The notes under the pieces are model-generated. The model did not search any database, was not told where the DNA came from, and saw only the letters and a program-made list of their open reading frames with translations. Below, piece by piece: positions 22,395 through 44,077 of a DNA stretch of 64,000 nucleotides. The position numbers and the translations under genes were made by a program. This DNA is from Elusimicrobium sp. An273 (GTDB lineage: Bacteria > Elusimicrobiota > Elusimicrobia > Elusimicrobiales > Elusimicrobiaceae). Within the stretch, counting starts at the first letter, position 1. Each line of letters starts with the position of its first letter. Location: positions 186,001 through 250,000 of the forward strand of contig NZ_NFJD01000002.1 of assembly GCF_002159705.1 (NCBI RefSeq), given 5' to 3'.

Positions 22395-24929
22395 TTATTT
22401 ACGTCTTGCGCCTTTGCGGCGGGCAGACGCCGTTTGGCGGGCCGAACGGCTTTTAGAGGCCTTTTTGGCGGTTTTTTTAGCCGGGCGGGCGGATTTCTTA
22501 GCCGCCGCTTTTTTTACCGTTTGGGCCGCCTTTTTATGTTTTTGGGCGCCGCGTTTTTTGGCATGGGCTTTCTTTTGCAGTTTGGCTTCAAACTCTTTCC
22601 AGCCTTCCAACGCAAGCGGCAAGACTTCGTCCATATGCTTGACGGGGATGAGCGTCATCTCTTTGCGCACCCGTTCCGGCACTTCGGAAACGTCCTTCTC
22701 GTTGGTGTGCGGGTAGAGAATCGTTTTGACCCCTTCGCGGTAGGCGGCCAGGAATTTTTCCTTAATTCCCCCCACCGGCAAAATGCGGCCCGTAATGGTT
22801 ACTTCGCCCGTCATCGCCAAGTGCTTTTTAACGGGCAGGCCCGTCAGCAAGCTGGTAAGGGCGGTCGTAATCACGCTTCCGGCAGACGGCCCATCCTTGG
22901 GCACGGCTCCTTCCGGGAAGTGAACGTGAAAGTCCGTCTTATCAAAATCAATCCCCTCGCCATAGCCGCGGCTGCGGGCATAGGTCAGGGCCGCACGGAC
23001 GGATTCCTTCATCACGTTGCCCAGCATACCCGTCAAAATCAGCTGGCCTTTGCCGGGCAGTTTGGTGGCTTCAATAGACAGGGTTTCCCCTCCCACGCTC
23101 GTCCACGCCAGGCCCGTAGCAATGCCTACGCCGTTTTCTTCCGTAGCGAAATTGGAATACTTGGGCACGCCCAAGAATTCGTGCAGGTTTTCCTTGGTGA
23201 CGGTTACCTTTTTGGCGCCGTCCACAATCATCTTGGAAGCTTTGCGGCACAGCGAGCCGATTTCCCGCTCCAGGTTGCGCACCCCGGCTTCGCGCACATA
23301 ATCGCGCATCAGCAGGGATACCGCATCGTACGTTACCTCAAGCTGGCCTTCCTTCAGGCCGTGCATTTTCATCTGCTTGGGCAAGAGGTATTTATCCACG
23401 ATGTCGTGTTTTTCGTACTCGGTGTAGCCGTCAAAGTCGATAATTTCCAAGCGGTCGCGAAGCGTGCTGGGAATATTGGCCAGCGAGTTGGCCGTCGTGA
23501 TAAACATCACTTTAGACACGTCAAACGGCACATCCAGGAAGTGGTCGGTAAATTCCTTGTTCTGCTCCGGATCCAACAGCTCCAAAAGCGCCGCGGCCGG
23601 ATCTCCGCGCCAGTCGGAACCCATTTTGTCGATTTCGTCGAGCAAAAACACCGGGTTGGAACTTTTGGCCTTGCTGATGCCCTGGATAATGCGCCCGGGC
23701 ATAGAGCCGATATAAGTGCGGCGGTGGCCGCGGATTTCACTTTCATCCCGCACGCCGCCCAGCGACATCCGCACAAACTTGCGCCCGATCGCCCGCGCAA
23801 TGGACTTGGCCAAAGACGTTTTCCCCACGCCCGGCGCACCGGCAAAGCACAGCACCGGCCCGCGCAGGGAATTGGTCAGCTTGCTGACCGCCAAGTATTC
23901 CAAAATACGTTCTTTCGGTTTTTCCAAGCCGAAGTGATCTTCGTCCAAAATCCGTTTGGCCTCTTTCAAGTCCAACACGTCTTCGGTCGTTTTGTTCCAC
24001 GGCATGTTCACCAGCCAGTCCAAATACGTGCGCGAAACCGTAGCCTCCGGCGAAAACGGCGCCATTTTGGACAACCGTTCTATTTCCTTTTCGGCCGCTT
24101 CTTTGGCGTGCGGCGGCAGGCCGTTCTTTTTTACTTTGGCCCGCAAGGAATCCAGTTCTTTCTGAAAATCATCCTTTTGGCTCAGCTCCTTTTGGATGGC
24201 TTTCATCTGCTCGTTTAAATAGTATTCTTTCTGGTTCTTTTCAATCTGAGCGCGCACCTTGGAGTGGATTTTTTCTTCCAGCCCCAAAATTTCCACTTCG
24301 CTGGTAATGAGCTTTAAGATTTTTTCCAAGCGGTCTTTAATGTGCACCGCTTCCAGAATTTCCTGCCGCTGGGAAGCTTTTACCAACATATTGGACGCCA
24401 CCGTGTCCGCCAGTTTGGACGGATCATTAATCTGGCGCAGGAACGACACCCCTTCCACCGCAATGCGGTGCGACACGCGGGCGTAGTGGTCAAACTCGTC
24501 TAACACTTTGCGCATTAAGGCCTGCACCACCGGGGAATCGTCTTCTTCTTCCTCAATATATTCCACCGTGGCAAACCACGAGCCCGCCACATCGTTCATT
24601 TCCAGCTTGGTTACGCGCGCACGGGCCAGGCCCTGCAGGAAAATCTTCATAGATCCGTCGGGCATCTTTAAATTCTGGGTGATTTGGGCAATCACGCCAA
24701 AATGGTAAATGTCGGATTCTTTGGGTTCTTCTATTTCCGCATTCTTCTGGGAAACCGCCAAAATATACTTTTCCGGCGTATTGAGCGCCAGCTCTACCGC
24801 CGCAATGGATTTTTCGCGGTCTACCGAAAGCGGAAGCGACATCCCCGGAAACATCACCACATCCCGAATGGCGACTGCCGGCACTACCGTCGGTAACGAA
24901 AGAGTTGTTCTTCTAATTTCTTCTGCCAT
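22395..24929 (-). CDS. lon: ATP-dependent protease Lon with Lys/Ala-rich C-terminal tail
   Basis: Lon degrades misfolded and regulatory proteins. The start at 24929 (AAGGGAG upstream) gives 844 residues. In order: N-terminal substrate domain (LPTVVPAVAIRDVVMFPGM), AAA+ ATPase with Walker A GAPGVGKTS and Walker B FLLDEIDKMG, and the Ser-Lys protease domain with PKDGPSAGS and a downstream catalytic Lys in GGIKEKFLAA. After the usual end, about 55 extra residues follow, very rich in Lys, Ala and Arg (PAKKTAKKASKSRSARQ), like histone H1 or AlgP tails. It is monocistronic. Confidence 0.95.
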   Translation of the reverse strand: MAEEIRRTTLSLPTVVPAVAIRDVVMFPGMSLPLSVDREKSIAAVELALNTPEKYILAVSQKNAEIEEPKESDIYHFGVIAQITQNLKMPDGSMKIFLQGLARARVTKLEMNDVAGSWFATVEYIEEEEDDSPVVQALMRKVLDEFDHYARVSHRIAVEGVSFLRQINDPSKLADTVASNMLVKASQRQEILEAVHIKDRLEKILKLITSEVEILGLEEKIHSKVRAQIEKNQKEYYLNEQMKAIQKELSQKDDFQKELDSLRAKVKKNGLPPHAKEAAEKEIERLSKMAPFSPEATVSRTYLDWLVNMPWNKTTEDVLDLKEAKRILDEDHFGLEKPKERILEYLAVSKLTNSLRGPVLCFAGAPGVGKTSLAKSIARAIGRKFVRMSLGGVRDESEIRGHRRTYIGSMPGRIIQGISKAKSSNPVFLLDEIDKMGSDWRGDPAAALLELLDPEQNKEFTDHFLDVPFDVSKVMFITTANSLANIPSTLRDRLEIIDFDGYTEYEKHDIVDKYLLPKQMKMHGLKEGQLEVTYDAVSLLMRDYVREAGVRNLEREIGSLCRKASKMIVDGAKKVTVTKENLHEFLGVPKYSNFATEENGVGIATGLAWTSVGGETLSIEATKLPGKGQLILTGMLGNVMKESVRAALTYARSRGYGEGIDFDKTDFHVHFPEGAVPKDGPSAGSVITTALTSLLTGLPVKKHLAMTGEVTITGRILPVGGIKEKFLAAYREGVKTILYPHTNEKDVSEVPERVRKEMTLIPVKHMDEVLPLALEGWKEFEAKLQKKAHAKKRGAQKHKKAAQTVKKAAAKKSARPAKKTAKKASKSRSARQTASARRKGARRK

Positions 24930-25005
24930 ATGTTCTCCCTTACTAAGTGGGTAAATCGTGTTTGTAAGAAGCAATTTTTAGGATCCCCTGCTGCTTAGTT
25001 TATAA

Positions 25006-25159: not shown

Positions 25160-25747
25160 TTATTTTTTGAGCGGAAGCACTTCGTCAATTAAGCCGTATT
25201 CTTTGGCTTCTTGGGCGGACATATAATAGTTGCGTTCGCTGTCGCGGCGGATTTTTTCTTTGTCCTGCCCGGTGTGTTTGGCCAAAATATCCAGCAGGTG
25301 TTCTTTATTGTCGCGCAATTCTTTGGATTCAATTTCAATATCCGTTACCTGGCCGGAAATGCCGCCCCCCCAAATTAAGGGTTGGTGGATCATAATGCGC
25401 GCATGCGGCAGGGCGTAGCGCTTGCCCTTGGAGCCCGCCGCCAGCAAGACGGCGCCAAAGCTCATGGCCTGGCCCATGCAAATAGTGGTGATAGGGGCTT
25501 TGATAAACTGCATCGTGTCGTAAATAGCCAAGCCCGCCGTTACCAAGCCGCCGGGAGAGTTGATGTAGAGGTTGATTTCCCGGTTGGGGTCGTCCGCGTC
25601 CAAATACAGAAGCTGGGCGATAATCATATTCGCGCTGGCAGTATCCACTTCGCCCTCGCGTCCGCCTACAAAAATGATGCGGTCTTTAAGCAGGCGGGAA
25701 AAAATATCATATCCAACGTTCTTTTCAATAATAGTAGGTATAATCAT
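25160..25747 (-). CDS. clpP: ATP-dependent Clp protease proteolytic subunit with Asn in the catalytic triad
   Basis: ClpP is the barrel-forming serine peptidase that works with ClpX or ClpA/C. The 195-residue protein starts [10 protein letters not shown] without a long propeptide. The nucleophile Ser is in [14 protein letters not shown] and the His in RIMIHQP. The third position, Asp in the E. coli segment TERDRF, is Asn here ([12 protein letters not shown]; the codon read on the minus strand is AAC). Asn at this position is known in Listeria ClpP1. A TACAAT ends seven bases before the ATG. No clpX is adjacent; lon lies just downstream. Confidence 0.94.
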
Positions 25748-25792: not shown

Positions 25793-25858
25793 AATTAGGC
25801 CTTTTATCCGGCAAGACCTAGGCCTAAAGACCTTTGTTTTTCGGGAGTTGATTTATTA
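25793..25858 (+). promoter_or_regulatory. Shared upstream element, copy 1
   Basis: ATTAGG-CTTTT, CCTAGGCCTAAAGACC and GATTTATT occur in the same order and near-equal spacing as at 26521-26579. TTAGGCC and GGCCTAA in this copy form an inverted repeat around a 19-base loop. It may be an operator overlapping the promoter or a structured 5' UTR. Confidence 0.5.
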
Positions 25859-25895
25859 GGATAAAAGAAGGAAATAAACTTTTTGGGAGGGTTGT

Positions 25896-26414
25896 ATGAA
25901 ACTAAATAAATTTTTTGCCTTATTGGCCACCTTAGCCGTTTCCACCGCCGCTTTTGCCGGAAATTCTTCCAGCAACAGCGCGCTTATTGAACAGTCCGTC
26001 TCCAGTGCGGCAGCGACCGTAGAAGAAGAAGCCGCCGATCCGCAGATTTTGAAAAATACCCAGCAGGCGCTTACTATGGGCTTTATGATTTTTGACGCCC
26101 ACCGCGATTTAAATTCTATGACCGAGACCGACCAAGCCATCGCCTCGCTGTTGGAATCCAACATCCCGGCTACGCTAAACAAAATTGAAACCTCGTCCGA
26201 CGATGTAGTGGATGAAATTGAACCGATGATTGAACAGCTGACGGATTTGCTGCTTAAAAACCAGACGGTCTACCCCGCCGCTTCCTACGACAGACAAGCC
26301 GGCGTCTATATTACGTTTTTGACGGCGATTATGTACGCCAATCAAAAAGGCCTGCTCTTAGGAAAAGTATCCAATATCTTAAGCGCGGAAATTCAATCTT
26401 CTTTTGCAGAATAA
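25896..26414 (+). CDS. Exported protein of unknown function
   Basis: The 172-residue protein has a Sec signal peptide (MKLNKFFALLATLAVSTAAFA, cut before GNSSS), so the mature part is periplasmic or secreted. The mature part is acidic and helical with no Cys and no motif I recognise. GGGAGG precedes the ATG. It shares an upstream element with the zinc-ribbon repeat gene that follows, implying co-regulation, though a terminator lies between them. Confidence 0.75.
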   Translation: MKLNKFFALLATLAVSTAAFAGNSSSNSALIEQSVSSAAATVEEEAADPQILKNTQQALTMGFMIFDAHRDLNSMTETDQAIASLLESNIPATLNKIETSSDDVVDEIEPMIEQLTDLLLKNQTVYPAASYDRQAGVYITFLTAIMYANQKGLLLGKVSNILSAEIQSSFAE

Positions 26415-26452: not shown

Positions 26453-26520
26453 TTGGATATACACAAACGGACTGGTACCGATTTTGAACGACACCCTCTT
26501 AGAAAACAGTCCTATTTTAA

Positions 26521-26579
26521 ATTAGGTCTTTTTTTAGCCGCGGCCTAGGCCCAAAGGCCCTTTGCAAATCGATTTATTT
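26521..26579 (+). promoter_or_regulatory. Shared upstream element, copy 2
   Basis: ATTAGG-CTTTT, CCTAGGCCCAAAGGCC and GATTTATT match the element before the previous gene. Several differences are compatible with pairing changes, but one creates a mismatch, so RNA structure is not proven. Confidence 0.5.
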
Positions 26580-26636
26580 TATTTAAACTACAGGTAAGGA
26601 AATTCTATTTACACCGATTCTTTTCGTGGAGGAACA

Positions 26637-27653
26637 ATGAAAAATCTGAAATGGATGTTAGCCGTTTTAACCGCTGTCCTGATTACAGCCCCGGTTTTTG
26701 CCCAAGCCCCCAAATCGTCGGCCCGCACCGCACAAGAAGGGCTTTCGGCCAGCATTGAACGCGCGGCCGTCAAAGCGGTGCGCCAGCATCAAAAGAAAGT
26801 TTGCTGTTATTGCGGGGAAGAAATTTTGTACCCGGGCCAGCATTGCTCGGCCTCCGGCTACGTTTCTCTTTGCACGACGCAGGAATATCAGCCCGCCAAA
26901 CGCACGGACAGCACTCCCTCCGTCTGCCCCAAATGCGGTGAAGAATATACGATTGACGAAAAATACCACGGCGCTAAACACGTCTGCCAAGTAAAAGACG
27001 CCCAAGAAGAACAAGCGCCCGTCTGCTGCCGCTGCGGCGAAGAAATCCTTTCTAAAGGACAGCACTGCGCGGCCTCCGGCTACGTTTCTCTTTGCACGAC
27101 GCAGGAATATCAGCCCGCCAAACGCACGGACAGTGTTCCCTCCGTCTGCCCCAAATGCGGCAAAGCTTATACGATTGACGAAAAACACCACGGCGCTAAA
27201 CACGTCTGCCAAGCGGAAAACACCCAAGAAGAACAAGCGCCCGTCTGCTGCCGCTGCAGAGAAGAAATTCTGTCCCAAGGCCAACACTGCCAAGCAACCA
27301 GCTGCACCTCTCTTTGCACGACGCAGGAATATCAGCCCGCTAAACGCACGGACAGTGTTCCCTCCGTCTGCCCCAAATGCGGCAAAGCGTACACGATTGA
27401 CGAAAAATACCACGGCGCCAAACACGTGTGCAAAACTGCCCAAAAAGACACGGTAGAATACTGCATTTACTGCGGAGAACCGATTGTAGAAAACAACCAA
27501 AAATGCACCGTAGCAAAAGGGATGGACTGCAGGGTGCGCTGCCCGGAATGCACGGTCAACTTGCGGGATCCTAAAAACCTAAACGCCGCCGGCACCCACT
27601 ACTGCAGATTCAAACTAGTCATCAAACCGGTTAAACCGCACACCGGCAAATAA
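26637..27653 (+). CDS. Exported tandem zinc-ribbon repeat protein
   Basis: The 338-residue protein has a signal peptide (MKNLKWMLAVLTAVLITAPV, ending FAQA). From about residue 55 it consists of three nearly identical 74-residue units and a diverged fourth. Each unit holds CC-x-CGEEI, an HC, an LC, CPKCG and HVC, i.e. enough Cys for two zinc-ribbon-like sites, and the constant segment TTQEYQPAKRTDS. Outside the cytoplasm these Cys could bind metal or form disulfides. GGAGG precedes the ATG. I know no family with this architecture; the function is unknown. Confidence 0.8.
   Translation: MKNLKWMLAVLTAVLITAPVFAQAPKSSARTAQEGLSASIERAAVKAVRQHQKKVCCYCGEEILYPGQHCSASGYVSLCTTQEYQPAKRTDSTPSVCPKCGEEYTIDEKYHGAKHVCQVKDAQEEQAPVCCRCGEEILSKGQHCAASGYVSLCTTQEYQPAKRTDSVPSVCPKCGKAYTIDEKHHGAKHVCQAENTQEEQAPVCCRCREEILSQGQHCQATSCTSLCTTQEYQPAKRTDSVPSVCPKCGKAYTIDEKYHGAKHVCKTAQKDTVEYCIYCGEPIVENNQKCTVAKGMDCRVRCPECTVNLRDPKNLNAAGTHYCRFKLVIKPVKPHTGK
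26799..27464 (+). repeat. Three 222-bp tandem repeats within the gene
   Basis: Units start at 26799, 27021 and 27243, an exact period of 222 bp (74 codons), with long stretches identical at the DNA level. This points to recent duplication or homogenisation and makes copy-number change likely. Confidence 0.85.
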
Positions 27654-30875: not shown

Positions 30876-31304
30876 TTATAAGGTATCCGTATCCGATTCT
30901 ATGGTATAGGTCAACTTGCATTTGCGGGCATTATCGGCCGTAGGATAGGTGGTGGTAAATTCGGCCGTAACGTCGTAGGTTTTCCCGTTGACCGGAATGT
31001 GGCAAGTGTGGGTGCGCACCGAATTGGCCGTTGAACAGGCCGACGTGACATTCGTGGAGTTGCAGTACATAATGCATTGGCGCAAATCCCGCGAAAAGGC
31101 CTCCGAATTTTTGATAGACCATAAGGTGTTTACTTCCGCCATGCACGAGTTAACCAACATTTGGGCCGAAACCGTACGCCGCGTCTTGCGGGCCGCCGTT
31201 ACGCGCGACAAACTGGCCCGAAGCAACATCGTTGCCATCCCCGCCAGAATGACCGTAATCAGCAAAACTTGCAGTAAAGCCGCCCCTTTGTTATTCTTCC
31301 ACAT
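30876..31304 (-). CDS. Minor prepilin, PilX/GspK-like (no Glu5)
   Basis: The 142-residue prepilin has leader MWKNNKG and the hydrophobic helix AALLQVLLITVILAGMA. Position 5 is Gln, not Glu, as seen in the tip pseudopilin GspK/PilX class. Several Cys pairs are present in the globular part. It is last of six consecutive prepilins, the order expected for a G-H-I-J-K style set. Confidence 0.8.
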   Translation of the reverse strand: MWKNNKGAALLQVLLITVILAGMATMLLRASLSRVTAARKTRRTVSAQMLVNSCMAEVNTLWSIKNSEAFSRDLRQCIMYCNSTNVTSACSTANSVRTHTCHIPVNGKTYDVTAEFTTTYPTADNARKCKLTYTIESDTDTL

Positions 31305-31314
31305 ACAAAACCCC

Positions 31315-32049
31315 TCAGTCTTCTACCCGAAAGCCATTGGGCAAAATAAATGTTTCTTCCACTACGTCATTTACGATAGGCGTGCTGTCCAGTTCGGTAA
31401 TAATTTTCAGCACCAGCACGCTGGCTAAGTCTTTCCGCCGCCAATCCACCGATACGGCGTCCTTCTCGCTATATTCCGCATCCGAGCCGGACAAGCGAAA
31501 CAAAGGCACCGGATAATACTTGGAATCGCCCGACGAACCAATGGGCGGAATAAACTTTACATTATGTAAAAATACTTCAAAATTATCGTCCGTATCAGGC
31601 GTACCGCAGACAGGAGCGATTCCGTCCCAAGTGGGAACGGAGGAACTCTCCCGGCGGTAAATCGTTCCTTTGGAAAGAGCCCCGGTAGGCGTAGCCGTCG
31701 TGCCGCCGGTAACGAAACAATAAGTCACGTACGAGGGAGTAACCATACTGTTAATGGCATTGTTATTTAAATTAATGTTCTTGGCCAGCAACAACAACGG
31801 GGTTACCGCCCCTTCAGAGGAAGAATCTATCCGCCCGCGCACGTACATTACCCGGCTGGAAGCATGGATATCGTCGCGCAGCTGCCGCAAGGCAATAGAC
31901 AAATTGTTGCGTAATAAAATTTTACTGCGCCCCACTCCGGATTCCCGCGAAGCGGCCGTCGTAAGCGCGGCCAACGCCACCCCGATAATTCCCACAATCA
32001 TCACGGCCAGTAAAATTTCCGTCAGTGTAAACCCTTTTTTATTTTTCAT
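31315..32049 (-). CDS. Minor prepilin, PilW/GspJ-like
   Basis: The 244-residue prepilin has leader MKNKKG and helix FTLTEILLAVMIVGIIGVAL with Glu5. The longer globular domain and place between the PilV-like and PilX-like genes fit PilW/GspJ, a minor pilin of the priming tip complex. It overlaps the upstream gene by four bases. Confidence 0.8.
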   Translation of the reverse strand: MKNKKGFTLTEILLAVMIVGIIGVALAALTTAASRESGVGRSKILLRNNLSIALRQLRDDIHASSRVMYVRGRIDSSSEGAVTPLLLLAKNINLNNNAINSMVTPSYVTYCFVTGGTTATPTGALSKGTIYRRESSSVPTWDGIAPVCGTPDTDDNFEVFLHNVKFIPPIGSSGDSKYYPVPLFRLSGSDAEYSEKDAVSVDWRRKDLASVLVLKIITELDSTPIVNDVVEETFILPNGFRVED

Positions 32050-32543
32050 AGCGTAAATCCGTTACACGTAATATAATACTTCACGCTTATCACTGAAGCA
32101 TAGGGCGAAGCCCCCCAGCCCTCCACCATGCCATTTGCATTGTAGTTGGCAGAAAAAGGAACCGACATATTCACTTTTTCCGTACCGGTGGTATAGTAAA
32201 AACTGGAGGTATTTCTGTCACAAATCGGTGGCAGCATACAATTGATAAAATGCGTCCGCCCGATCGCCAAGGGGTTGTTGTCCCCTCCGCACAAGCCGTT
32301 TCTCAATTCCGAAGGAATTTCCGCATCGGAAGACAAATACAGCACCGGCGGATACATTTGCAATTGTTCATTGGCGCGCTCTACCGCCAAAATCATGGAT
32401 TCCCGGATGTCCGGCGTCCCGGCTTTGCGCGAAACGGAAAGCAGCACGCCAAAAGTGCCTGCCGCGACCAGCGCCAAAAGGCCCAAGGCAATTAGCCCTT
32501 CCAGCACCGTTACACCCGTTTTTTTGCTCAAAATCTTTTTCAT
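32046..32543 (-). CDS. Minor prepilin, PilV/GspI-like
   Basis: The start at 32543 is preferred because TAGGGGGA lies upstream; it gives about 165 residues. The leader MKKILSKKTG precedes VTVLEGLIALGLLALVAAG, with Val at mature position 1 and Glu at 5. It is a member of the minor-pilin set, coupled to the PilW-like gene. Confidence 0.8.
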   Translation of the reverse strand: MKKILSKKTGVTVLEGLIALGLLALVAAGTFGVLLSVSRKAGTPDIRESMILAVERANEQLQMYPPVLYLSSDAEIPSELRNGLCGGDNNPLAIGRTHFINCMLPPICDRNTSSFYYTTGTEKVNMSVPFSANYNANGMVEGWGASPYASVISVKYYITCNGFTL

Positions 32544-32553
32544 TTCCGTCCCC

Positions 32554-33126
32554 CTAATCCGCATTATCCTGAGGCTTCATGGTTTGGTTCACGAAAATAT
32601 GATAGCTGCTGCTCGTATATTTTTTGCCGGCCCCGCTGGCACCGCGCACCACCACCAACGGCGTATTGGTGCCCACCGTTTCGGTAATCTGGCATTTGGT
32701 AGGCTGCGCCCCGCCGGAAATGGGGTTGCACGCACAAAATTCATAGGGTAACCCCGAAAAATCTTTAAACGACAAATACCCGCACGCAAATAACTGCGAC
32801 AAGCTGGAGCGGGAAGAATTATTTGTGGTACTGTTTTGATAGGGGATTCCGTCCGAAGTGGGAGACACGCACGCAGACGGCGCCGCCATGACCACCGCAT
32901 TTCCCGCCGTAGTAGAAGGGGTAAAGCACTCTTGCTTTACGCCTAACCCGCGGCTGACTTGATAATAAGAACGCATCGCTTCCGCCATTTTTTTGGCCGC
33001 CGCCTTGGCCTGCCCGTTTTTAACTTCGTACCGCACGGAACGAAAAACCGGAACCGCCATGGAGACCACCACTGCGATCACCAACAGCACAGCCAAAATT
33101 TCCATTAGCGTAAATCCCTTTTTCAT
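32554..33126 (-). CDS. Prepilin, GspH/FimT-like
   Basis: The 190-residue prepilin has a very short leader (MKKG) and helix FTLMEILAVLLVIAVVVSM with Glu5. The globular part has six Cys. It is third in the cluster, the place of GspH/FimT-like pilins in other systems, but the subclass is tentative. Confidence 0.8.
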   Translation of the reverse strand: MKKGFTLMEILAVLLVIAVVVSMAVPVFRSVRYEVKNGQAKAAAKKMAEAMRSYYQVSRGLGVKQECFTPSTTAGNAVVMAAPSACVSPTSDGIPYQNSTTNNSSRSSLSQLFACGYLSFKDFSGLPYEFCACNPISGGAQPTKCQITETVGTNTPLVVVRGASGAGKKYTSSSYHIFVNQTMKPQDNAD

Positions 33127-33129
33127 ATG

Positions 33130-33591
33130 TTAATTGGCTCCAACTATTTCTAATACGCTTCCCGAATTTTCAAAACAATACAAATATCCTTGTTTGGCTA
33201 AATAGCGGTTGGGCAATTTTTCACTTTTCCCCGACATACAAGCCAAATATGTAGACGAGGGACAAATAATCGAGTTTCCCCCGGTGCATATTTCAAAAGA
33301 AAAATACGGATCCTCCAGTAAATACGAAAAACTCTTTTCCAAATACCCGCAATTTACTAAATTGCTGATGTTTAACGTAGAATTAGAGGTGATGAGGGTG
33401 CACGCCGCCGGATCCATCCGATAGCGCTGCACGGCATTGGCTAAGGCTTCCGCCTGGGCTTTGGCCCCGGCCAAACGCGTTTCCGCGGCACTCTCGCGAT
33501 AGGCAACCGTAGCAAATACCGCCAAAATGCCAATGATAGTAGCCGCAATCAACAGCTCTAAAAGCGTAAACCCCTTGTTATTTTTCTTCAT
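33130..33591 (-). CDS. Prepilin
   Basis: The 153-residue prepilin has leader MKKNNKG and helix FTLLELLIAATIIGILAVFA with Glu5. It has Cys pairs in the C-terminal half and starts three bases upstream of the next gene's region, within the pilus operon. The subclass is not assigned. Confidence 0.85.
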   Translation of the reverse strand: MKKNNKGFTLLELLIAATIIGILAVFATVAYRESAAETRLAGAKAQAEALANAVQRYRMDPAACTLITSNSTLNISNLVNCGYLEKSFSYLLEDPYFSFEICTGGNSIICPSSTYLACMSGKSEKLPNRYLAKQGYLYCFENSGSVLEIVGAN

Positions 33592-33644
33592 ATTATTCCC
33601 TTACTAAAGTATTGCACCGATTCAGACGGATGTCAAGCCAAAAG

Positions 33645-34160
33645 CTATTTAGAAATGCGCTGAATCGTGCCGTCTTTTAAATACACCGCCCCGTAATACT
33701 GGCCCTTTGTCGGTCGGGACTTGTATTTGGAATCATACATGCAAACTACCACATCTTTGTTTCCTTGACAGCAATTGCCAGAACTGGCCACATTTTCCGG
33801 ACAAAAAGAAAAATAATACCCTTTATAGCTATTGCTTAAATCAAACGGAATGGGGGCCGCGTATTTCCGCGCAAACAAGGCGGTGGAAGCATTTGAACGG
33901 GTAATTTCGGCATCTTCATCCAAAGACGTCGTTTGCAGCGAGGAGGTTACGTTGCGCGTCGTCCATGGAAACTGAAAATCCACTTCGGCCTGTAAGGTTC
34001 TCACCCCATTTCCAAAATCAATCAGCACCCCTTGTGCCGCCAAATAGCGGTTGCGGTCTTGCGTCTTTTGGTATGCCGGCACGGCAAACGCCGCCACGGA
34101 CACCGCAATCACCACCACAATCAGCACTTCCAACAGGGTAAAGCCCTTTTGTTTTTTCAT
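33645..34160 (-). CDS. Prepilin, first of the cluster
   Basis: The 171-residue prepilin has leader MKKQKG and helix FTLLEVLIVVVIAVSVAAFA with Glu5. It lies directly downstream of pilC with AGGAGG before the ATG. Position suggests the GspG-like or core minor pilin. A CC-x-G motif and other Cys are in the globular part. Confidence 0.85.
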   Translation of the reverse strand: MKKQKGFTLLEVLIVVVIAVSVAAFAVPAYQKTQDRNRYLAAQGVLIDFGNGVRTLQAEVDFQFPWTTRNVTSSLQTTSLDEDAEITRSNASTALFARKYAAPIPFDLSNSYKGYYFSFCPENVASSGNCCQGNKDVVVCMYDSKYKSRPTKGQYYGAVYLKDGTIQRISK

Positions 34161-34174
34161 GCGTAGACCTCCTG

Positions 34175-35404
34175 TTAGTTCCCGCCGATTTGGGAAAGTT
34201 TGAAAATAGGCAAGAAAATGGACGCCACAATGATACCAATCAGCACACCGACGCCGCAGATCAGGATTGGGTCAATGACGGCCGAGAAACGGGCAATAAA
34301 CTGGTCTACGTTATCAGAATAGAATTTGGACAGCGTGGCAATAATGCTGGGCAGCTTACCGGATTCTTCCCCCATCAGCATCATTTCCGTCATCAGTCCG
34401 GGAAATACACCCGTATCGCGGAACGATTCGGAAATGGACTTTCCGGCCGCTACTTCCGCCCGCACATGCTTCAAGGCGTTTTGGATAATCACGTTTCCGT
34501 CAAACGATTCTTCCAATACCAAAATGGCGTTTAAAATGGTTACCCCGCTTTTAAGAAGGGTAGAGAGGGTGGAAAGCATCCGATCGTAATAAATGTTTTT
34601 TAAGAAGTTGCCAAAAATCGGCATCGACAGCAAAAACGAGTGCCAGCGCTTTTTGCCGTCGGTCGTCTTGATATAGAACCGAAACGCCACAATCAAAAAG
34701 ACGGTCAAGACAATCAGCAAAATACCGTTATTAATCAGTAATCCCGATACATTTAATACGATGACGGTAATCATCGGCAAATCAATGTTAAAATCTTTAA
34801 AGATTTGCGCGAAAGTAGGTACAATGCCCAAAATGAAGTAAACCAACACGCCTACGGAAGCAATAGTCAAAATCGCCGGGTAGGTGATAGCCGTGATGAT
34901 TTTGCTTTTCATTGATTCTTGGGTTTTGGTATAGAGGGCCACTTGCATCAAGGTATCGGCCAACTGCCCGCCCACTTCGCCAGCCTGCACCAGCGACAGC
35001 CAAATATGGCTGAAGGTCTTGGGATGATGGGAGAGCGCCGTATGCAACGACTGCCCGCCGGCAATATCTTTGGCGACCTGCGTCAGCACATAGCCCAGCG
35101 TAGGGTTAGAGGCATATTCTCCCAACAGCGAAACGGCACGCACCAACGGCACACCGCCGGCAATTAACGTGGAAAGCTGCTCGGCGAAGAACGCCAACAC
35201 ATGCCCCGGGACTTTTCCCCCTTTTTTGCGCGTCTTGGAACCGCCGCCTCCGCCAAACAAACCGCTCGTGCCTTCTTTTACTTCCAACACGAGGTAGCCT
35301 TTATTTTGCAAAGCCAAAATAACTTTTTCTCTATTATCCGCCGAAACGGAACCTTTTAGCGTTTTTCCGTTGGCATCTTTTACCGTATACGTATATTTTT
35401 GCAT
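34175..35404 (-). CDS. pilC: Type IV pilus inner-membrane platform protein
   Basis: PilC/GspF is the polytopic platform that couples the ATPase to pilin insertion. The 409-residue protein has an N-terminal PilC-specific segment (YTYTVKDANGKTLKGSV), then two T2SSF repeats, each a four-helix cytoplasmic domain plus membrane helices (around 165-195, 215-240 and 375-400). It lies 22 bases after pilB in the same operon. Confidence 0.95.
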   Translation of the reverse strand: MQKYTYTVKDANGKTLKGSVSADNREKVILALQNKGYLVLEVKEGTSGLFGGGGGSKTRKKGGKVPGHVLAFFAEQLSTLIAGGVPLVRAVSLLGEYASNPTLGYVLTQVAKDIAGGQSLHTALSHHPKTFSHIWLSLVQAGEVGGQLADTLMQVALYTKTQESMKSKIITAITYPAILTIASVGVLVYFILGIVPTFAQIFKDFNIDLPMITVIVLNVSGLLINNGILLIVLTVFLIVAFRFYIKTTDGKKRWHSFLLSMPIFGNFLKNIYYDRMLSTLSTLLKSGVTILNAILVLEESFDGNVIIQNALKHVRAEVAAGKSISESFRDTGVFPGLMTEMMLMGEESGKLPSIIATLSKFYSDNVDQFIARFSAVIDPILICGVGVLIGIIVASIFLPIFKLSQIGGN

Positions 35405-35426
35405 AAACCCTCTTTTTTACAATACG

Positions 35427-37172
35427 TTATTCGTCTGCCGTCGTAATGCTTAAAATTTCATCCACCGTCGTCAGCCCGCGGATGACTTTGTGCCACCCAT
35501 TGGCACGCAAGTTCAGCGCCCCCGAACGCACGGCTGCGCGTTTGAGTTCCACCAAGTCCTGCGTTTTGTAAATAATCGTACGCATTTCTTCCGTCATGCG
35601 GTATACTTCATAAATAGCGCGGCGGCCCATAAAACCGGTGCCAAAGCACTTCGGACAACCTACCGATTTAAAAAACGTCCACGAATTTTGATCGCGCGGA
35701 TTTAAATGCCCTTCCTGAATGATACGCGCCAGCATGGCCGAATCCGGGATATGGGGCACTTTGCAATAGGGGCACAAAATACGCACCAAACGCTGGGCAG
35801 CTACCAGCGCCAGCGAACTGGCCAACAGAAAAGGTTCCATACCCATATCAATCAAACGGGGAACGGCGCCTAACGCGTCGTTGGTGTGCAGGGTAGACAA
35901 CACCAAGTGACCGGTCAAAGCGGCTTTCAGGCACGCCTCCGCAGTTTCATTATCGCGGACTTCCCCCACCAGAATCACATCCGGGTCTTGACGCAAGAAC
36001 GAGCGCAGCCCCGCCGCAAACGTAAGCCCAATGGCCGGCTTTACCTGCACCTGGCTGATCCCGGCCAATTTGTATTCCACCGGGTCTTCCAACGTCATAA
36101 AGTTCAGTTCTGGCGTGCGGATGGTGGTCAGTACCGCGTTTAAGGTAGTAGATTTACCCGAACCGGTGGGCCCCGTCAAGAAAATAAGCCCGTGCGGCAA
36201 GTTGGCCGCTTCTAAGAAGGCCTTTTTTTGATCCGGCTCAAAACCCAGTTTGTCAATGTTCATTTCCCCCGTGCCTTTATCCAAAATACGAAGCACGAGT
36301 TTTTCCCCATACACGGCCGGGCACACAGACACACGGACTTCAATGGAGCGGTTCTGGTAGCGGATTGTAAAACTGCCGTCCTGCGGCAAGCGTTTTTCCG
36401 CAATATCCAATTTAGACAAAATTTTAATACGGGAAATAATCGCGTTTACGGATTCTTTGGCCGGTGGAGTTCTTTCATACAACGAACCGTCAATGCGGAA
36501 GCGCAAGCTCACGCGTTCATCAAACATTTCCAAATGAATATCGGACGTACGTTCCGAAATGGCCTGGCGCAAGATAGCGTTTACCTGCTTTACATATTGG
36601 GAAGAGTTGGGCGAAACTTTATCCAAATCCAATACGCCAGTCACTTCCACTTCTTCATCACTTTCGGCTGTGGCGGCGGAAACTTCTTCCGAAATGGGCT
36701 TGGCCGCTTCGTTCATCACTTCTTCCAACAAATTTTTGTTGGAGTAGAACGAATCAATCACCCGCAGCAGCTGGCTTTTGCTGGCGATAAAAGGCTGCAC
36801 CTGTTTGCCGGACATCATTTTGATATTGTCCAGCAAAAACATATTGGTCGGATCCAGCAAAGCCACCGCCAATTCATCATCCTCTATAAACAGCGGGATA
36901 ACCATATTTTCGCGGGCAAACTTTTCCGGGATAATTTCCTGCAAATTTTGTTCTCTTTCCGGCACCAAAATGCCGTTTTCTTTAGAAGCGTAGGGAACGG
37001 CAAAATGTTTAGAGAGCGCCACCGTTACTTCTTCTTCGGAAGCAAAACCGAACTTCACAATCGCTTCCGCCACGGATACATTGTTTTGCTTGGCATAAAG
37101 CTGCGCGCGTTTTATTTGCTCCGCGGTCAAAGTACCTTGCTCCATCAAAATTTCACTTAACTGTTTTGCCAT
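35427..37172 (-). CDS. pilB: Type IV pilus assembly ATPase
   Basis: PilB/GspE is the hexameric extension ATPase. The 581-residue protein has an N-terminal MshEN-type domain (about 1-150), which can bind c-di-GMP in some relatives. The ATPase core follows, with Walker A TGPTGSGKST, an Asp box, Walker B region DPDVILVGEVRDNET and the His box LSTLHTNDA. A Cys4 zinc motif (CPYC ... CPKC) is near the C-terminus, as in true PilB. No PilT retraction ATPase is in the window. Confidence 0.95.
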   Translation of the reverse strand: MAKQLSEILMEQGTLTAEQIKRAQLYAKQNNVSVAEAIVKFGFASEEEVTVALSKHFAVPYASKENGILVPEREQNLQEIIPEKFARENMVIPLFIEDDELAVALLDPTNMFLLDNIKMMSGKQVQPFIASKSQLLRVIDSFYSNKNLLEEVMNEAAKPISEEVSAATAESDEEVEVTGVLDLDKVSPNSSQYVKQVNAILRQAISERTSDIHLEMFDERVSLRFRIDGSLYERTPPAKESVNAIISRIKILSKLDIAEKRLPQDGSFTIRYQNRSIEVRVSVCPAVYGEKLVLRILDKGTGEMNIDKLGFEPDQKKAFLEAANLPHGLIFLTGPTGSGKSTTLNAVLTTIRTPELNFMTLEDPVEYKLAGISQVQVKPAIGLTFAAGLRSFLRQDPDVILVGEVRDNETAEACLKAALTGHLVLSTLHTNDALGAVPRLIDMGMEPFLLASSLALVAAQRLVRILCPYCKVPHIPDSAMLARIIQEGHLNPRDQNSWTFFKSVGCPKCFGTGFMGRRAIYEVYRMTEEMRTIIYKTQDLVELKRAAVRSGALNLRANGWHKVIRGLTTVDEILSITTADE

Positions 37173-37212
37173 TTCCTAATCCTCAATTAAACCCTGTGTT
37201 CGTTTTTTTACA

Positions 37213-37241
37213 CACCTGCCCCCGTTTGTCGGGGGCAGGTG
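37213..37241. other. Strong hairpin between secretin and pilB
   Basis: CACCTGCCCCCG and its exact complement with a TTTGT loop form a 12-bp GC-rich stem. On the coding (minus) strand it is followed by A, not T, so it is not a standard terminator; it may protect the secretin message or tune downstream expression. Confidence 0.55.
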
Positions 37242-37261
37242 AACAAGACTGCTTGATTAAT

Positions 37262-38842
37262 TTATTCCGCTAAGATGGTCGGCGTGATAAAGATTACCAA
37301 GTCCGTTGTGCTTTTGGATGTGGTCTTGCTGGTAAACAGCCAGCCCAATATCGGAATATCCCCCAAAAGCGGTACTTTGCGGGTTTGGTTGGTTTCGCGG
37401 GAAGTGAGCAGACCGCCGATTACCACCGTCTGTCCGTTTTTCACACGCACCAGCGTAGAAGCGGCACGGGTGGTGGTATCTTTAGAGAAGTCAAACCCGG
37501 AGCTTACCAAGTCCGAATACGAAGGCTGCACATACAGCGTGACGTAGCCTTCGCGGTTTACCTGCGGCGTAACCTGCAGCGTCAGACCGACTCTTTTTCT
37601 TTCCGCAGAAGTCGTCGTCATCCCTTCGCCCGATCCGCTGCCGGACTGGCTCATCGTCTGGCCGACGGTAGCATCGGTGGACGTCGTGATGGTAGCCGTT
37701 TTGTTGTTCAAGGTTACGACTTTCGGTTTACCCAAGTATTTTGCTTCCCCGCGGGTCAGCAAGCTCTTGAGCACAATGTTAAAGGCAGAGAAATCCAACA
37801 AACCGCCTTCATCCGTCTGATCAGACGAAGAGCTGGAGCTGCTGCTGGAACCGCCGCTTTCCGAAGAGTCGCTGTTCATTTGGTCTTTCGTGGGGAAAAT
37901 AAAGTTCCAGCCTTTTACGCCGTTGCCTTTAATATAATCCAAATCCACCACGCGGCTGGGGGCCGTCATCGAAACCAAGGCACCGCTTTCGCCGCCGTAT
38001 TCAAAGCCCAAGCTCAACCCGCTGGTTTTGCTGACTTCCACAATTTGGGCTTCAATCAAGATCTGCGGCGGTTTGATGTCCAATTCCGCCAAGATGTTTT
38101 CCACCTGCGGGAATACTTCCGCCACGTCGGTAATAATCAGTTTGTTCGTGCGGGGATCTACCGCAATTTTACCAACAGGAGAGAGCATGCTTTTTACAAT
38201 AGCGGTAATTTCGGCGCCGCCGCTATACGAATCCGTCGTGCCGGAGGTGCCGGTACCGCCTACACCAATGCCCGTATCCGTGCTGGAGCTGGAATAGCTG
38301 GAACCGCCCGTAGACACATCCTGCGGCATAATGCTGCTTAATTCGCTTTGGGCAGAGCCGATGCCTTGCAACGAAATATAGCTCAGCGTGTAGATTTTGG
38401 TAATCGTATCCGGAGCGTCGCTGGAGCGTTTGGTTACCACATAGCTGTCGCTTTTGCCGATGCGCTGATACGTCAAACCGTGTACGCGAAGAAGCGTATC
38501 CAGTGCCTCCCTCACCGTTACACGGGTCAGCGAAGCCGTAACTTTTTTATTGGCGAATTCTTCGCTCATAATAAAGTTAATCTTAGCTTGCGTGGTAATG
38601 CTGTTTAAAAACGCCGATATCGGTACGTTGGAAACACGAATGGAGACTTTTCTGTCCAAAGGAGAAAAAACCTCCGTTTCCTTATACAGATCGGATTCTC
38701 CCGACAGCTTTACCGTCGTATCCTCCGTCAAAGCGATGGTATCATCACTGGGAAGGGTCTGCCGGGCCTGTTGGGCCGAAACCGTACCCGTTAATCCCAA
38801 GGAAAATACACACGCCAGCACAACTGCTAAACGATTAGTCAT
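37262..38842 (-). CDS. pilQ: Secretin, PilQ/GspD-like
   Basis: The secretin forms the outer-membrane gate. The 526-residue protein has a signal peptide ending VSAQQ, an N0/STN-like domain (about 65-145, KVSIRVSNVPISAFLNSI), an N1-like domain, a Ser/Gly-rich linker and the secretin barrel domain ending with VPLLGDIPILGWLFTSK. Length is short for PilQ because AMIN domains are missing, closer to GspD-like or minimal PilQ proteins. The pilot lipoprotein was not found. Confidence 0.92.
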   Translation of the reverse strand: MTNRLAVVLACVFSLGLTGTVSAQQARQTLPSDDTIALTEDTTVKLSGESDLYKETEVFSPLDRKVSIRVSNVPISAFLNSITTQAKINFIMSEEFANKKVTASLTRVTVREALDTLLRVHGLTYQRIGKSDSYVVTKRSSDAPDTITKIYTLSYISLQGIGSAQSELSSIMPQDVSTGGSSYSSSSTDTGIGVGGTGTSGTTDSYSGGAEITAIVKSMLSPVGKIAVDPRTNKLIITDVAEVFPQVENILAELDIKPPQILIEAQIVEVSKTSGLSLGFEYGGESGALVSMTAPSRVVDLDYIKGNGVKGWNFIFPTKDQMNSDSSESGGSSSSSSSSSDQTDEGGLLDFSAFNIVLKSLLTRGEAKYLGKPKVVTLNNKTATITTSTDATVGQTMSQSGSGSGEGMTTTSAERKRVGLTLQVTPQVNREGYVTLYVQPSYSDLVSSGFDFSKDTTTRAASTLVRVKNGQTVVIGGLLTSRETNQTRKVPLLGDIPILGWLFTSKTTSKSTTDLVIFITPTILAE

Positions 38843-38875
38843 CTATCCTCCTGTTGAGTATTCCTAAATGAGTTT

Positions 38876-39589
38876 TTAAAGCGGCAACTGCACTTTTCTT
38901 ACAAATTTGTGTCCTTTATACGAAAACACCACTTCTTCCGGACGCACTTCCACGATACGGGCCCCATAAATGCTTTTCCCAATCGTGTAAATCTTATCTC
39001 CAATGAAAACTTCTTCCCCGATGATCCCCGTTACACGGATCTTATTGCGTACCTCGCGGGTGGGGTCTTTAATGCGGGCCAATTCTAACTGACGCAAGCG
39101 CTCTGCTTCTTCGCGGCGGCGGCGTTCTTCGGCCAGTTTGCGTTGGCGTTCCGCCTCCAAGGCGGCCAAGCGCTGTTGTTCACGATATTGCAGCAACAAA
39201 AAATCATCCGGAGACAGCGTAGGATCCCGGTGATTTTTGGGATTATAAACCACTTTCGGGGCGGCCGGTGTTTCCACCACTTCCGTCACTTCTTCCCGCG
39301 GAGCCACAAAAGATTCCCCTTCCGGCGCGTTCGCGGCAACCGGCAATACTTCACCCGGCTGGGCCGCGGGTGCAACAGGTTCTTGCGCCGCCGGAGCCGT
39401 TACCGTTTCCACCGAAACGTCCGCCTGAGCGGCCAGCGTCTCTTTTACGCCGGGAGCGGTTTTTCCCGTCAGCCGGGAAGCTTCCGCCGGGGAAACCCCG
39501 GCATTCTGTTCAACCGCCGGCTGTGCCTGCAAAATACCGCACGTTCCAAACAGGCACAAGGTAAACAAATAGATTACTTTCCGGTTCAT
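38876..39589 (-). CDS. pilP: PilP-like pilus alignment protein
   Basis: The 237-residue protein has an N-terminal export signal (IYLFTLCLFGTCGILQAQ), an Ala/Pro/Glu-rich linker, an Arg/Glu-rich coiled stretch (ERQRKLAEERRRREEAER) and a C-terminal beta domain (NKIRVTGIIGEEVFIGD) like PilP/GspC homology regions that bind the secretin. The position between pilO and pilQ supports PilP. It overlaps pilO by four bases. The sequence match itself is weak. Confidence 0.75.
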   Translation of the reverse strand: MNRKVIYLFTLCLFGTCGILQAQPAVEQNAGVSPAEASRLTGKTAPGVKETLAAQADVSVETVTAPAAQEPVAPAAQPGEVLPVAANAPEGESFVAPREEVTEVVETPAAPKVVYNPKNHRDPTLSPDDFLLLQYREQQRLAALEAERQRKLAEERRRREEAERLRQLELARIKDPTREVRNKIRVTGIIGEEVFIGDKIYTIGKSIYGARIVEVRPEEVVFSYKGHKFVRKVQLPL

Positions 39590-40275
39590 TTATTTACCTC
39601 CTTGTTTTCGGCCTGCTGTTTGGCGGCTTTTGCGGCGGCCTCTCTTTCTTTCATAATTTTATCATAATCCTTAAATAAGGATTTTGCAATTTTTTCTTTC
39701 GGGAAAATCGTGTTGAACTTCATAGAAATTTTATTCATTCCCAATTTATCCGCTTCTTTCATTTTTTCCAATGAAAACTCGGATATTTTTACGAAGTCCT
39801 TTGAGTTTTCCACCTGCGCCAAAAAGTTGGCAAACTGGTCAAACCCCATTTCGGCATTGACCCGCAACGAAGTGGCCGTATAAGAAGCATTGGACGTATC
39901 TTCCGCCTGCCCCCCTTCCATTTGAGGGGTTACATTAGCTTCTTTAAACAGGCCCAGCGTCAGGCTTAAGAGCCATTCGTTTTTAGCAGAAATATCCGGA
40001 AACTGCGGTTCCAAATCCAAAAGTTTCTTTTTATTGCTTTGGTATTCCCGCTCGCTGGTTTGCTGCACGCGGATGGCATCCATCTGCCCTTCGTAATTGG
40101 AAATTTTTTCCGCAAATTTTCCATTTAAAAACCGAAAAGCCAGAAAGATAAGCAGCACGGCGATAAACTGTTTTAAAAACAGTTTAAAATTGCCCTCTTG
40201 GGAGACCGTTTGGATATCCTGAAAACCCTTTTTTAAATTTTCAACAATTTTATTTGTTTTCAAATTAACAGGCAT
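39586..40275 (-). CDS. pilO: PilO-like alignment protein
   Basis: The start at 40275 (GGGAGG upstream) gives 229 residues; the longer open frame upstream overlaps the PilM-PilN gene. A cytoplasmic N-terminus is followed by one helix (FLKQFIAVLLIFLAFRFL), a coiled coil and a ferredoxin-like periplasmic domain, the PilO plan. It lies one base after the PilM-PilN fusion gene. Confidence 0.85.
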   Translation of the reverse strand: MPVNLKTNKIVENLKKGFQDIQTVSQEGNFKLFLKQFIAVLLIFLAFRFLNGKFAEKISNYEGQMDAIRVQQTSEREYQSNKKKLLDLEPQFPDISAKNEWLLSLTLGLFKEANVTPQMEGGQAEDTSNASYTATSLRVNAEMGFDQFANFLAQVENSKDFVKISEFSLEKMKEADKLGMNKISMKFNTIFPKEKIAKSLFKDYDKIMKEREAAAKAAKQQAENKEVNK

Positions 40276-40276
40276 A

Positions 40277-41881
40277 TTAACGTCCTCCCTCTTTGCCGCA
40301 GGTAAACACGAAACTGGTTTCCTGGCCCGTAGTCTCCCGTCCGCCGGCAGACGCGGCCGACGTTCCGGCGCCGGCCACATTTACGTAGCGAATGGTAGCC
40401 GTCTTGCCGCAAATTTGTTGAAAAATCGGCTGCTGCACAAGCGCGTCTTTAAATTGGTTGCCCAACGCCAAATCGGCCCGGCCGTCTTTTCCTGTTTTAA
40501 TGACGCCCTCCATATCAATCTTGCGGGAAGAAGCTCCCTTAGACGGGAAAGAATCCGTATAACTTAACTTCGTAATCCACATTTCCTGCGGAATGGTATT
40601 AACAATTTCTTCCAATACAGGTACCAGGACGCTGTCGCCGGACAATAAGGTCGAAAGGTTGCCGTTTTGGCTTTTCATTTTGCTCAAGTTCGATTGAATC
40701 TGATTGGCCGTAAGCCCTTCAAAATCTGCAATCGTTTGTCTGTTGGAGGCTTTGGTGCGGGCCAGTTCGCTGGCTTTGCTCTGCACGCCCAGCCATCCTT
40801 TGCCGATGAGCAACAGGAAAATGACAATAATCACCGCCGCAATCTTCCAAGCGGTTAAGCTGGCATTAAATTCATAATCGCTCAGGCGCGTTCCCTTGGT
40901 AAAATCCAAGTCCGGCGTTTTGTGATCATAAAATTTAATGCTCGCGCCAATGGCCGCAATTTCCCCGGCGGAGTTTGTCTCAATCCCGTATACTTCGCGC
41001 AAGTCCCATTTGCGCACCGGCTTTTTGGAATCGGCCTCCAACGCGGGAATCCATTGCTCCGTATCGTGCCCCATGATCACCGCTTCTTCAAACGGATCTT
41101 TTTCCAGCTGCTTGGCGATAAATTCGGTGCAGTTGGTAATTTCAAAGCGGCGGCGTTCTGCCGGCAGGGAGCCGTAAATTTCCACTTCACGCAATAAAAC
41201 AGGCGCATTCTCGTTTAAAAACACGAAACTGGCCATATCTTTTCCGAAGAAAGAATAAATTCTTCCTCCGGGGCCAATGGCTTCTTTGTCGCTGTCGTTA
41301 AAAGCGCGCCCCATAGACAAGCTGGATGGTTCCACCGATACCAATTCCAACCCGGCCGCTTTGAGGCCTTTTTGCAAACGCTCAATAATCAGTTTTGTCG
41401 TCATGGCAAACACAACGCCCAAGCGTTTTTGTTTGGTTGCGGCCGTTTCAAATTCGTACACGTGGTAAGCGTATTCGGCTTTTTCAAACGGGAAATGAAT
41501 ATATTTGCGCGCTTGAAGCGGAATGGAACTTTTCCACATTTTGCGTTCAATGGCGGCCGGAATCACGAAATGGCGCAGCAAACAAAACGCAGGAGCCAAG
41601 CTGACCACAACTTTATTGGTTTTCCATTTCTTTTTGGAAGTTACTTTTCCCAGTGCTTCCAACCAATTGTCCATGGAAAAAAACGCTTCATTCAAATCCA
41701 GCGGTTTAAGCAAAGTTTTATCTACAGAATTAATCGGCACGCGCACCAACGATTCCAAAACGGTTCCGCTGTCCTTTTTGGAACTTTGCGCAATATACAT
41801 TTCATCAATGCCAATATAGATGCCCAGACAATCCGGATGGGCGTTCATGTTCTTGCCGATTAAAGTTTCAGAAAAGCTCAT
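40277..41881 (-). CDS. PilM-PilN fusion (GspL-like)
   Basis: The 534-residue protein joins an N-terminal actin-like PilM domain (about 15-340, starting CLGIYIGIDEMYIAQ) to a membrane helix (about 365-385, WKIAAVIIVIFLLLIGKGW) and a periplasmic coiled coil plus ferredoxin-like PilN domain. In type IV pili these are usually two proteins; in type II secretion GspL is the equivalent single chain. GAGG precedes the ATG at 41881. It is first of the coupled PilM-N, PilO, PilP set. Confidence 0.85.
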   Translation of the reverse strand: MSFSETLIGKNMNAHPDCLGIYIGIDEMYIAQSSKKDSGTVLESLVRVPINSVDKTLLKPLDLNEAFFSMDNWLEALGKVTSKKKWKTNKVVVSLAPAFCLLRHFVIPAAIERKMWKSSIPLQARKYIHFPFEKAEYAYHVYEFETAATKQKRLGVVFAMTTKLIIERLQKGLKAAGLELVSVEPSSLSMGRAFNDSDKEAIGPGGRIYSFFGKDMASFVFLNENAPVLLREVEIYGSLPAERRRFEITNCTEFIAKQLEKDPFEEAVIMGHDTEQWIPALEADSKKPVRKWDLREVYGIETNSAGEIAAIGASIKFYDHKTPDLDFTKGTRLSDYEFNASLTAWKIAAVIIVIFLLLIGKGWLGVQSKASELARTKASNRQTIADFEGLTANQIQSNLSKMKSQNGNLSTLLSGDSVLVPVLEEIVNTIPQEMWITKLSYTDSFPSKGASSRKIDMEGVIKTGKDGRADLALGNQFKDALVQQPIFQQICGKTATIRYVNVAGAGTSAASAGGRETTGQETSFVFTCGKEGGR

Positions 41882-41893
41882 AAGTACCTCGGA

Positions 41894-43951: not shown

Positions 43952-44077
43952 TCGGTCATCCTGTCCCTTGCGAAACATCGTCTATACCCTGCAACACACA
44001 GATAATAGAATTATAGCAATTTCGCGCGGTTTGTAAAGACACTTTTTAAGTTTTTTGCAAAACACCCTTTTTGGAAT

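Follow-up and report, generated by a model that had tools for sequence, protein, structure and literature searches.

RESULTS

A cysteine-rich repeat gene behind a gene for a second predicted exported protein

One gene in the stretch of DNA analyzed here (the window, 64,000 nt in full) encodes a cysteine-rich repeat protein and lies downstream of a gene for another predicted exported protein (Table 1). ClpP-like and Lon-like genes lie nearby and face away from the repeat gene. About 3 to 16 kb from the repeat gene, window positions 30876-43978 contain a secretin gene along with genes that resemble those for pilins and for type II secretion or type IV pili. Of two secretin genes detected, one lies at window positions 37271-37756 in the pilus or type II secretion cluster (names assigned by eye). 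An outer-membrane route thus exists in principle, and its tie to the repeat protein is only potential.

Table 1. Features of the repeat locus, in window positions.
Feature	Position	Strand	Details and basis
Lon-like gene	22395-24974	-	name by eye
ClpP-like gene	25160-25747	-	name by eye
Putative promoter box of neighbor gene	25819..25836	+	2 mismatches; with TAGGAT at 25857-25862
Neighbor gene, predicted exported protein	25896..26414	+	172 aa, mature part without cysteine; ORF list, distribution search
Distal box copy TAGGTCTTTT	26523..26532	+	23 nt upstream of proximal box; by eye
Proximal putative promoter box TAGGCCCAAAGGCCCTTT	26546..26563	+	exact match to TAGGYCYAAAGRCYCTKT
Possible -35 TTTGCA	26561-26566	+	17-nt spacer to TAAACT; position
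Likely -10 hexamer TAAACT	26584..26589	+	38 nt after box start; position relative to box
Cysteine-rich repeat protein ORF	26637..27653	+	338 aa
Predicted Sec signal peptide, residues 1-22	26637..26702	+	cleavage expected after FA; crude rule and conservation in relatives
Predicted N-terminal helix of mature protein, residues 30-52	26724..26792	+	AlphaFold2 model, low to middling confidence; AIERAAxKA in consensus
Tandem unit 1 (74 aa)	26799..27020	+	repeat finder, DNA identities; module offsets by eye
Module A1	26802-26873	+	C56 C59 C70 C79
Module B1	26925-26987	+	C97 C100 H111 H115 C117
Tandem unit 2	27021..27242	+	repeat finder, DNA identities; module offsets by eye
Module A2	27024-27095	+	C130 C133 C144 C153
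Module B2	27147-27209	+	C171 C174 H185 H189 C191
Tandem unit 3	27243..27464	+	repeat finder, DNA identities; module offsets by eye
Module A3	27246-27317	+	C204 C207 C218 C227
Module B3	27369-27431	+	C245 C248 H259 H263 C265
Diverged, shorter fourth unit, residues 274-330	27456..27626	+	8 invariant Cys/His in 15 aligned C-terminal units; confident model

The repeat protein begins with MKNLKWMLAVLTAVLITAPVFA, which a crude rule classifies as a signal peptide and which is followed by Q across the expected cleavage site. A22 and Q23 are almost invariant among 25 aligned sequences. We then applied the rule to 90 distinct relatives, drawn from 59 database proteins and the ORFs of fetched loci after merging identical ones: 66/90 pass with a strict A-x-A cleavage site, and the other 24 have another small-residue-x-A end and look signal-peptide-like by eye. 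An N-terminal signal peptide is thus kept in the relatives, as in Sec-exported proteins, with cleavage itself being predicted. We infer from these sequences that the protein goes by Sec to the periplasm or beyond. An earlier note on this DNA had placed a signal peptide ahead of the repeats, which our data support as predicted export; we found no sign of the opposite outcome, a cytosolic protein lacking a signal peptide.

Three tandem units and a fused fourth

The mature part of the protein (315 residues) contains 32 Cys (10.2%) and 13 His. A repeat finder delimited three copies of exactly 222 nt each, and TRF returned a period of 222 with 2.7 copies, 89% matches and 0% indels, at a score of 922 that stands far above the other rows (5 rows in the window). 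Identity between the units at the DNA level is 86.5% for units 1 and 2, 79.7% for units 2 and 3, and 73.9% for units 1 and 3, and the longest identical run is 64 nt. Such patchy identity with long perfect blocks is what exchange between units would give. Cysteines and histidines follow two patterns, C-x2-C, 9 to 12 residues, C, usually 8 residues, and C in module A, and C-x2-C-x10-H-x3-H-x-C in module B. In the fourth unit, A4 (C276 C279 C290 C298) is fused to B4 (C302 C305 H321 C323), with 3 residues between them. The three 222-bp repeats of the earlier note, their paired CxxC motifs (the C-x2-C of both modules) and a diverged fourth repeat are therefore real, the last being a fused A and B module; "near-identical" overstated the likeness of units whose DNA is 74 to 86% identical.

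The Cys/His ligand sets are conserved in the relatives

Parsing of the 90 relatives yielded 207 A and 137 B modules. All five B ligands were found in 135/137 B modules, a proportion conditional on the parser, which demanded at least 3/5 ligands. The fourth ligand of module A is Cys in 201/207 copies and His in 6/207; five of the latter are genuine swaps, located in A copies outside the fused C-terminal unit of the related proteins L077 and L088, and the sixth (P0033) is a mis-parse. In an alignment of 15 C-terminal units, 14 columns are invariant and exactly 8 of these are Cys/His (C,C,C,C and C,C,H,C), as two metal sites would need. Each site thus has the invariant set of four Cys/His ligands expected of a zinc ribbon. 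The first His of module B is missing from the C-terminal unit and is therefore unlikely to be a required ligand. This clade also has CC doublets in addition to the motifs, such that some cysteines fall outside the ligand sets, and the relatives contain further module types (ITDE..KCPxDPDVxC) and common linkers such as NPYFKGGDPHNAANYEKC.

Structure models and comparison with known zinc modules

We ran the structure prediction proposed in the earlier note. AlphaFold2 modeled the C-terminal unit confidently (pLDDT 90.9, pTM 0.75), and the full-length model was locally fair and globally undefined (pLDDT 74.7, pTM 0.25), as for beads on a string. A structural search with both models gave no significant fold match, and no Pfam or NCBIfam model scored above its cut-off with the whole repeat protein; the Pfam zinc ribbons Zn_ribbon_4 and Zn_Ribbon_1 reached 15.1 versus 30.3 bits and 12.6 versus 25 bits, respectively.

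The CxxCG knuckles resemble those of zinc-ribbon and double-zinc-ribbon families (Zn_ribbon_3, PF13248; Zn_Ribbon_1, PF13240; DZR, PF12773). At E <= 0.01, Zn_ribbon_3 matches 12 and Zn_Ribbon_1 matches 6 of the 15 C-terminal units, the unit of the window protein itself having no match to either, and some relatives bear precomputed zinc-ribbon labels. Zinc ribbons are usually cytoplasmic, whereas the modules of the window protein are predicted to be exported and stand in tandem, and their second knuckle is not CxxC. With its two adjacent four-ligand sites, the C-terminal unit is also reminiscent of LIM domains, and the CPxCGK...H-x3-H pattern of module B recalls C2H2 zinc fingers; both kinds occur among the PDB sequence matches of the C-terminal-unit profile. 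However, the ligand spacings differ and the structural matches are not significant. LIM domains have the spacing C-x2-C-x16-23-H-x2-C-x2-C-x2-C-x16-21-C-x2-3-C/H/D, and the C-terminal unit of the window protein reads C-x2-C-x10-C-x7-C-x3-C-x2-C-x15-H-x-C. Module B likewise departs from the classical C2H2 spacing, C-x2-4-C-x12-H-x3-5-H.

A genus-restricted family with apparently varying numbers of units

A single-sequence search detected the family in 32/90 genomes of the GTDB family, all within one genus of 66 genomes. With a profile, we found it in 33 of 340 genomes of the phylum, again all in that genus, and in 0/274 phylum genomes outside it. About half of the genus (33/66 genomes) is without a match, and the repeat protein is thus not essential to it. 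The genus is probably Candidatus Avelusimicrobium, and one homolog is named Candidatus Avelusimicrobium alvi. Avelusimicrobium, a member of the Elusimicrobiaceae, was described from chicken (PMC8035907). The gut is the likely home of the bacterium.

We then compared repeat number between strains, as the earlier note had suggested. Single gaps of 74, 74, 69, 69, 68, 76, 37, and 91 aa separate proteins that are 96.7 to 100% identical where they align; these whole-unit differences concern about eight lineages, which are largely metagenome assemblies where repeat collapse is possible. The relatives also contain tandem paralogs of the repeat gene and share modules, and P0019 looks like a chimera of two paralogs, being P0012-like in its first half and P0028-like in its second (partly by eye). 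The closest strain, P0001 (96.4% identical), has the same number of units as the window protein. TTQEYQPAK occurs in unit 1 of the window protein and is confined to units 2 and 3 in P0001 (by eye), as gene conversion would give. In P0018, P0043, and P0054, the frame is shifted in the last modules (by eye), by assembly error, decay or on/off switching.

Repeat-variable surface proteins of bacteria, such as vWbl of Staphylococcus lugdunensis, have a signal peptide followed by tandem units that vary between strains. The window protein has a similar layout, with a predicted signal peptide and then tandem units, the number of which may differ between relatives. Unlike in those proteins, its units are Cys/His modules, and Pfam recognized no wall anchor or adhesin fold.

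A box upstream of the repeat gene recurs before genes for predicted exported proteins

A putative promoter box precedes the repeat gene (Table 1). Its distal copy and AGTCCTA at 26508-26514 make up an inverted repeat, with the distal copy as the 3' arm; the arrangement is similar in many of the relatives inspected (by eye). The TAAACT hexamer was not reported as a -10 by a generic promoter scan. We found TAGGYCYWWWGRCYCTKT, with up to 3 mismatches, upstream of 33 of the 34 member genes tested, compared with 4/680 shuffled upstreams, and TAnnnT at +38 from the box in 28. In the organism's own genome, TAGGYCYAAAGRCYCTKT has 14 sites with up to 2 mismatches and 36 with up to 3, versus 2 and 13 for the reversed pattern. 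The 66 genomes of the genus contain 348 sites with at most 1 mismatch, whereas a control pattern gives 4. The counts for two sister genera are 11 sites in 3 genomes and 16 in 18 genomes, and a search of three single-genome genera found 0 sites. Because of its position and over-representation, we take the box to be a candidate promoter element and its genes a putative regulon.

Inspection of 34 of the 36 own-genome sites placed 18 just upstream of a signal-peptide ORF (17 genes, with L158 failing the rule and accepted by eye) and 16 elsewhere. Such an ORF follows 9/14 of the better sites and 9/20 of the weaker ones, by a rule that is permissive (26/60 window ORFs pass). When one site was sampled from each of 24 other genomes of the genus, the rule recognized a signal-peptide ORF downstream of 19/24, and one more (L182) was accepted by eye; two of these ORFs are repeat-family members. 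In six own-genome genes, namely, L143, L146, L147, L148, L159, and L160 (G000 C2:289041, C2:292077, C3:73483, C4:127198, C4:180994, and C1:177441, respectively), the ATG is found exactly 50 nt downstream of the start of the box and about 7 nt past the -10, and their mRNAs are therefore likely leaderless.

A Pfam scan of 16 box-linked proteins gave matches above cut-off to a receiver domain in L150 and to a matrixin-type protease in L157; ChaN/Tiki (L143, L146, L160) and ankyrin (L151) matched below cut-off, and the rest had no convincing match. L150:1860-3020 (-) combines a signal peptide with a C-terminal response-regulator receiver domain (33.5 versus a cut-off of 30.2 bits), a domain that would be odd outside the cytoplasm. 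Two box-linked exported proteins of the same genome, L156:1988-3004 (-) and L157:947-3007 (-), have CxxC zinc-finger-like motifs, joined in one of them to the matrixin-type protease domain. Ankyrin-like sequences were seen by eye in the box-linked exported proteins L167, L168, L174, L186, and L151:2326-3000 (-). L158:404-1342 (+) and L159:345-1091 (+) have MYRG..L..IL.NGL stretches in common and no Pfam match. A conserved non-exported member is a glycosyltransferase-like gene, with the box 161 to 191 nt before it in three genomes (L145:352-1110 [+], L169, and L170).

The neighboring 172-aa protein is present in 32/90 genomes of the GTDB family, all in the genus of the repeat family. Of the 21 genomes with both genes, 15 have them at most about 2 kb apart on one contig (hand count), 3 have them 10 to 12 kb apart and 3 on different contigs. 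The tie to the preceding exported protein that the earlier note had suspected is thus partly backed, by the common box and by proximity in 15/21 genomes.

DISCUSSION

The reading that we favor, with a probability of roughly 0.45, is that the chain of zinc-folded modules acts as an extracytoplasmic multivalent binding scaffold within a co-regulated exported set; modularity and variation, both read from the sequences, are what point to this role. The repeat protein would be made together with other predicted exported proteins of the set, and each module would fold around one zinc ion, for about eight zinc per chain. The N-terminal helix may gather several chains, and flexible linkers of about 10 to 17 residues would leave the beads free. 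Recombination between units would change the number and the faces of the beads, with the metal ligands staying fixed, and the chain would bind host, competitor or matrix molecules.

We consider it unlikely that the protein is a metallothionein-like zinc buffer or store outside the cytoplasm, the repeats of which would only add capacity. About eight predicted sites per chain and the apparent change in unit number suit a store, but many proteins that lack zinc-like motifs likewise have the box before their genes, such that the regulation does not look zinc-specific, and capacity alone would not need varying linkers and module faces or alternating module types.

Still less probable is a disulfide-linked surface or matrix protein, in which the cysteines would cross-link chains outside the cell. 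Predicted export, 10% Cys, the CC doublets that leave cysteines outside the ligand sets and a weak DsbA-like exported protein would all agree with it. Against this, the own genome (97.8% complete) gave no match in searches for DsbB and VKOR and none above cut-off for DsbA, the same searches being positive in 6/14, 3/14, and 9/14 control genomes, respectively; the single sub-threshold DsbA-like exported protein has CPYG where the second Cys is expected (by eye). The DsbA with DsbB or VKOR that would accompany disulfide-folded envelope proteins was therefore not found, other oxidation routes being possible. It is reported that some anaerobes oxidize a few proteins via a partnerless DsbA-like protein and that obligate anaerobes tend to keep cysteines out of exported proteins (PMC12453122). 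The low cysteine content of 16 other box-linked signal-peptide proteins, 29 Cys in 6,222 mature residues (0.47%, versus 10.2% in the repeat protein; L161, with a weak, distant box, is included and the non-exported L145 left out), fits this remark; two of the 16 have CxxC motifs (L156, 10 Cys; L157, 7 Cys). Cross-linking is also disfavored by the Cys-to-His swaps at one ligand, by the three Cys and conserved His of the B modules and by the high air sensitivity of a cultured chicken Elusimicrobium isolate (PMC6069880). Given the invariant ligands, the swaps and the Dsb and VKOR results, the cysteines are likelier to be used for zinc than for disulfides; of the two options in the earlier note, the sequences thus argue for metal binding and against disulfide linkage.

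A redox-switched holdase of the Hsp33 or Ruc type outside the cytoplasm, which would lose zinc on oxidation and then bind unfolded proteins, seems improbable. The zinc-ribbon protein Ruc becomes active as a chaperone when oxidized, its expression is regulated together with that of chaperone genes, and it resembles the window protein in having a zinc-ribbon-type four-Cys site beside flexible sequence (PMC7448276). However, Ruc has one zinc site, whereas the window protein has many predicted sites, a signal peptide and, among the box genes inspected, mostly other exported proteins as partners. The link to chaperone genes that characterizes Hsp33 and Ruc was not seen among the box genes, which are mostly exported with a glycosyltransferase in addition, although the nearby ClpP-like and Lon-like genes count against this verdict. 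Nor would one expect a general chaperone to vary in its repeats and to shuffle its paralogs.

Very improbable, finally, is a cytosolic or delivered zinc-finger chain on DNA or RNA: the C-terminal-unit profile does match classical zinc fingers best (designed protein Aart, 1.7e-12; consensus zinc finger, 4.9e-7), largely via the common CxxCG and His/Cys pattern, but the signal peptide is kept in relatives, the C-x2-C-x10-H-x3-H spacing of module B is shorter than the usual x12 of C2H2 fingers and the linkers are unlike the usual TGEKP.

Beyond the scaffold reading, we more tentatively suggest that an anaerobic gut genus without a recognizable disulfide pathway may fold Cys-rich exported proteins around zinc, as recombining, strain-variable chains of beads. 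Their expression would depend on a hitherto undescribed type of promoter (box 38 nt ahead of the -10, in some cases leaderless) that would serve mainly exported, partly effector-like proteins. Neither zinc-ribbon-like knuckles nor repeat-variable exported proteins are new in themselves; our literature searches for the combination in a module chain and for the box found neither.

In a predicted exported protein of an anaerobic lineage, 10% Cys contrasts with the tendency to exclude cysteine that is reported for obligate anaerobes (PMC12453122). If our reading is true, the folding of cysteine-rich proteins outside the cytoplasm without oxygen becomes directly testable. A change in unit number would point to a contact surface on which selection shifts, and the box would provide a handle on the exported-protein program of a little-studied gut genus.
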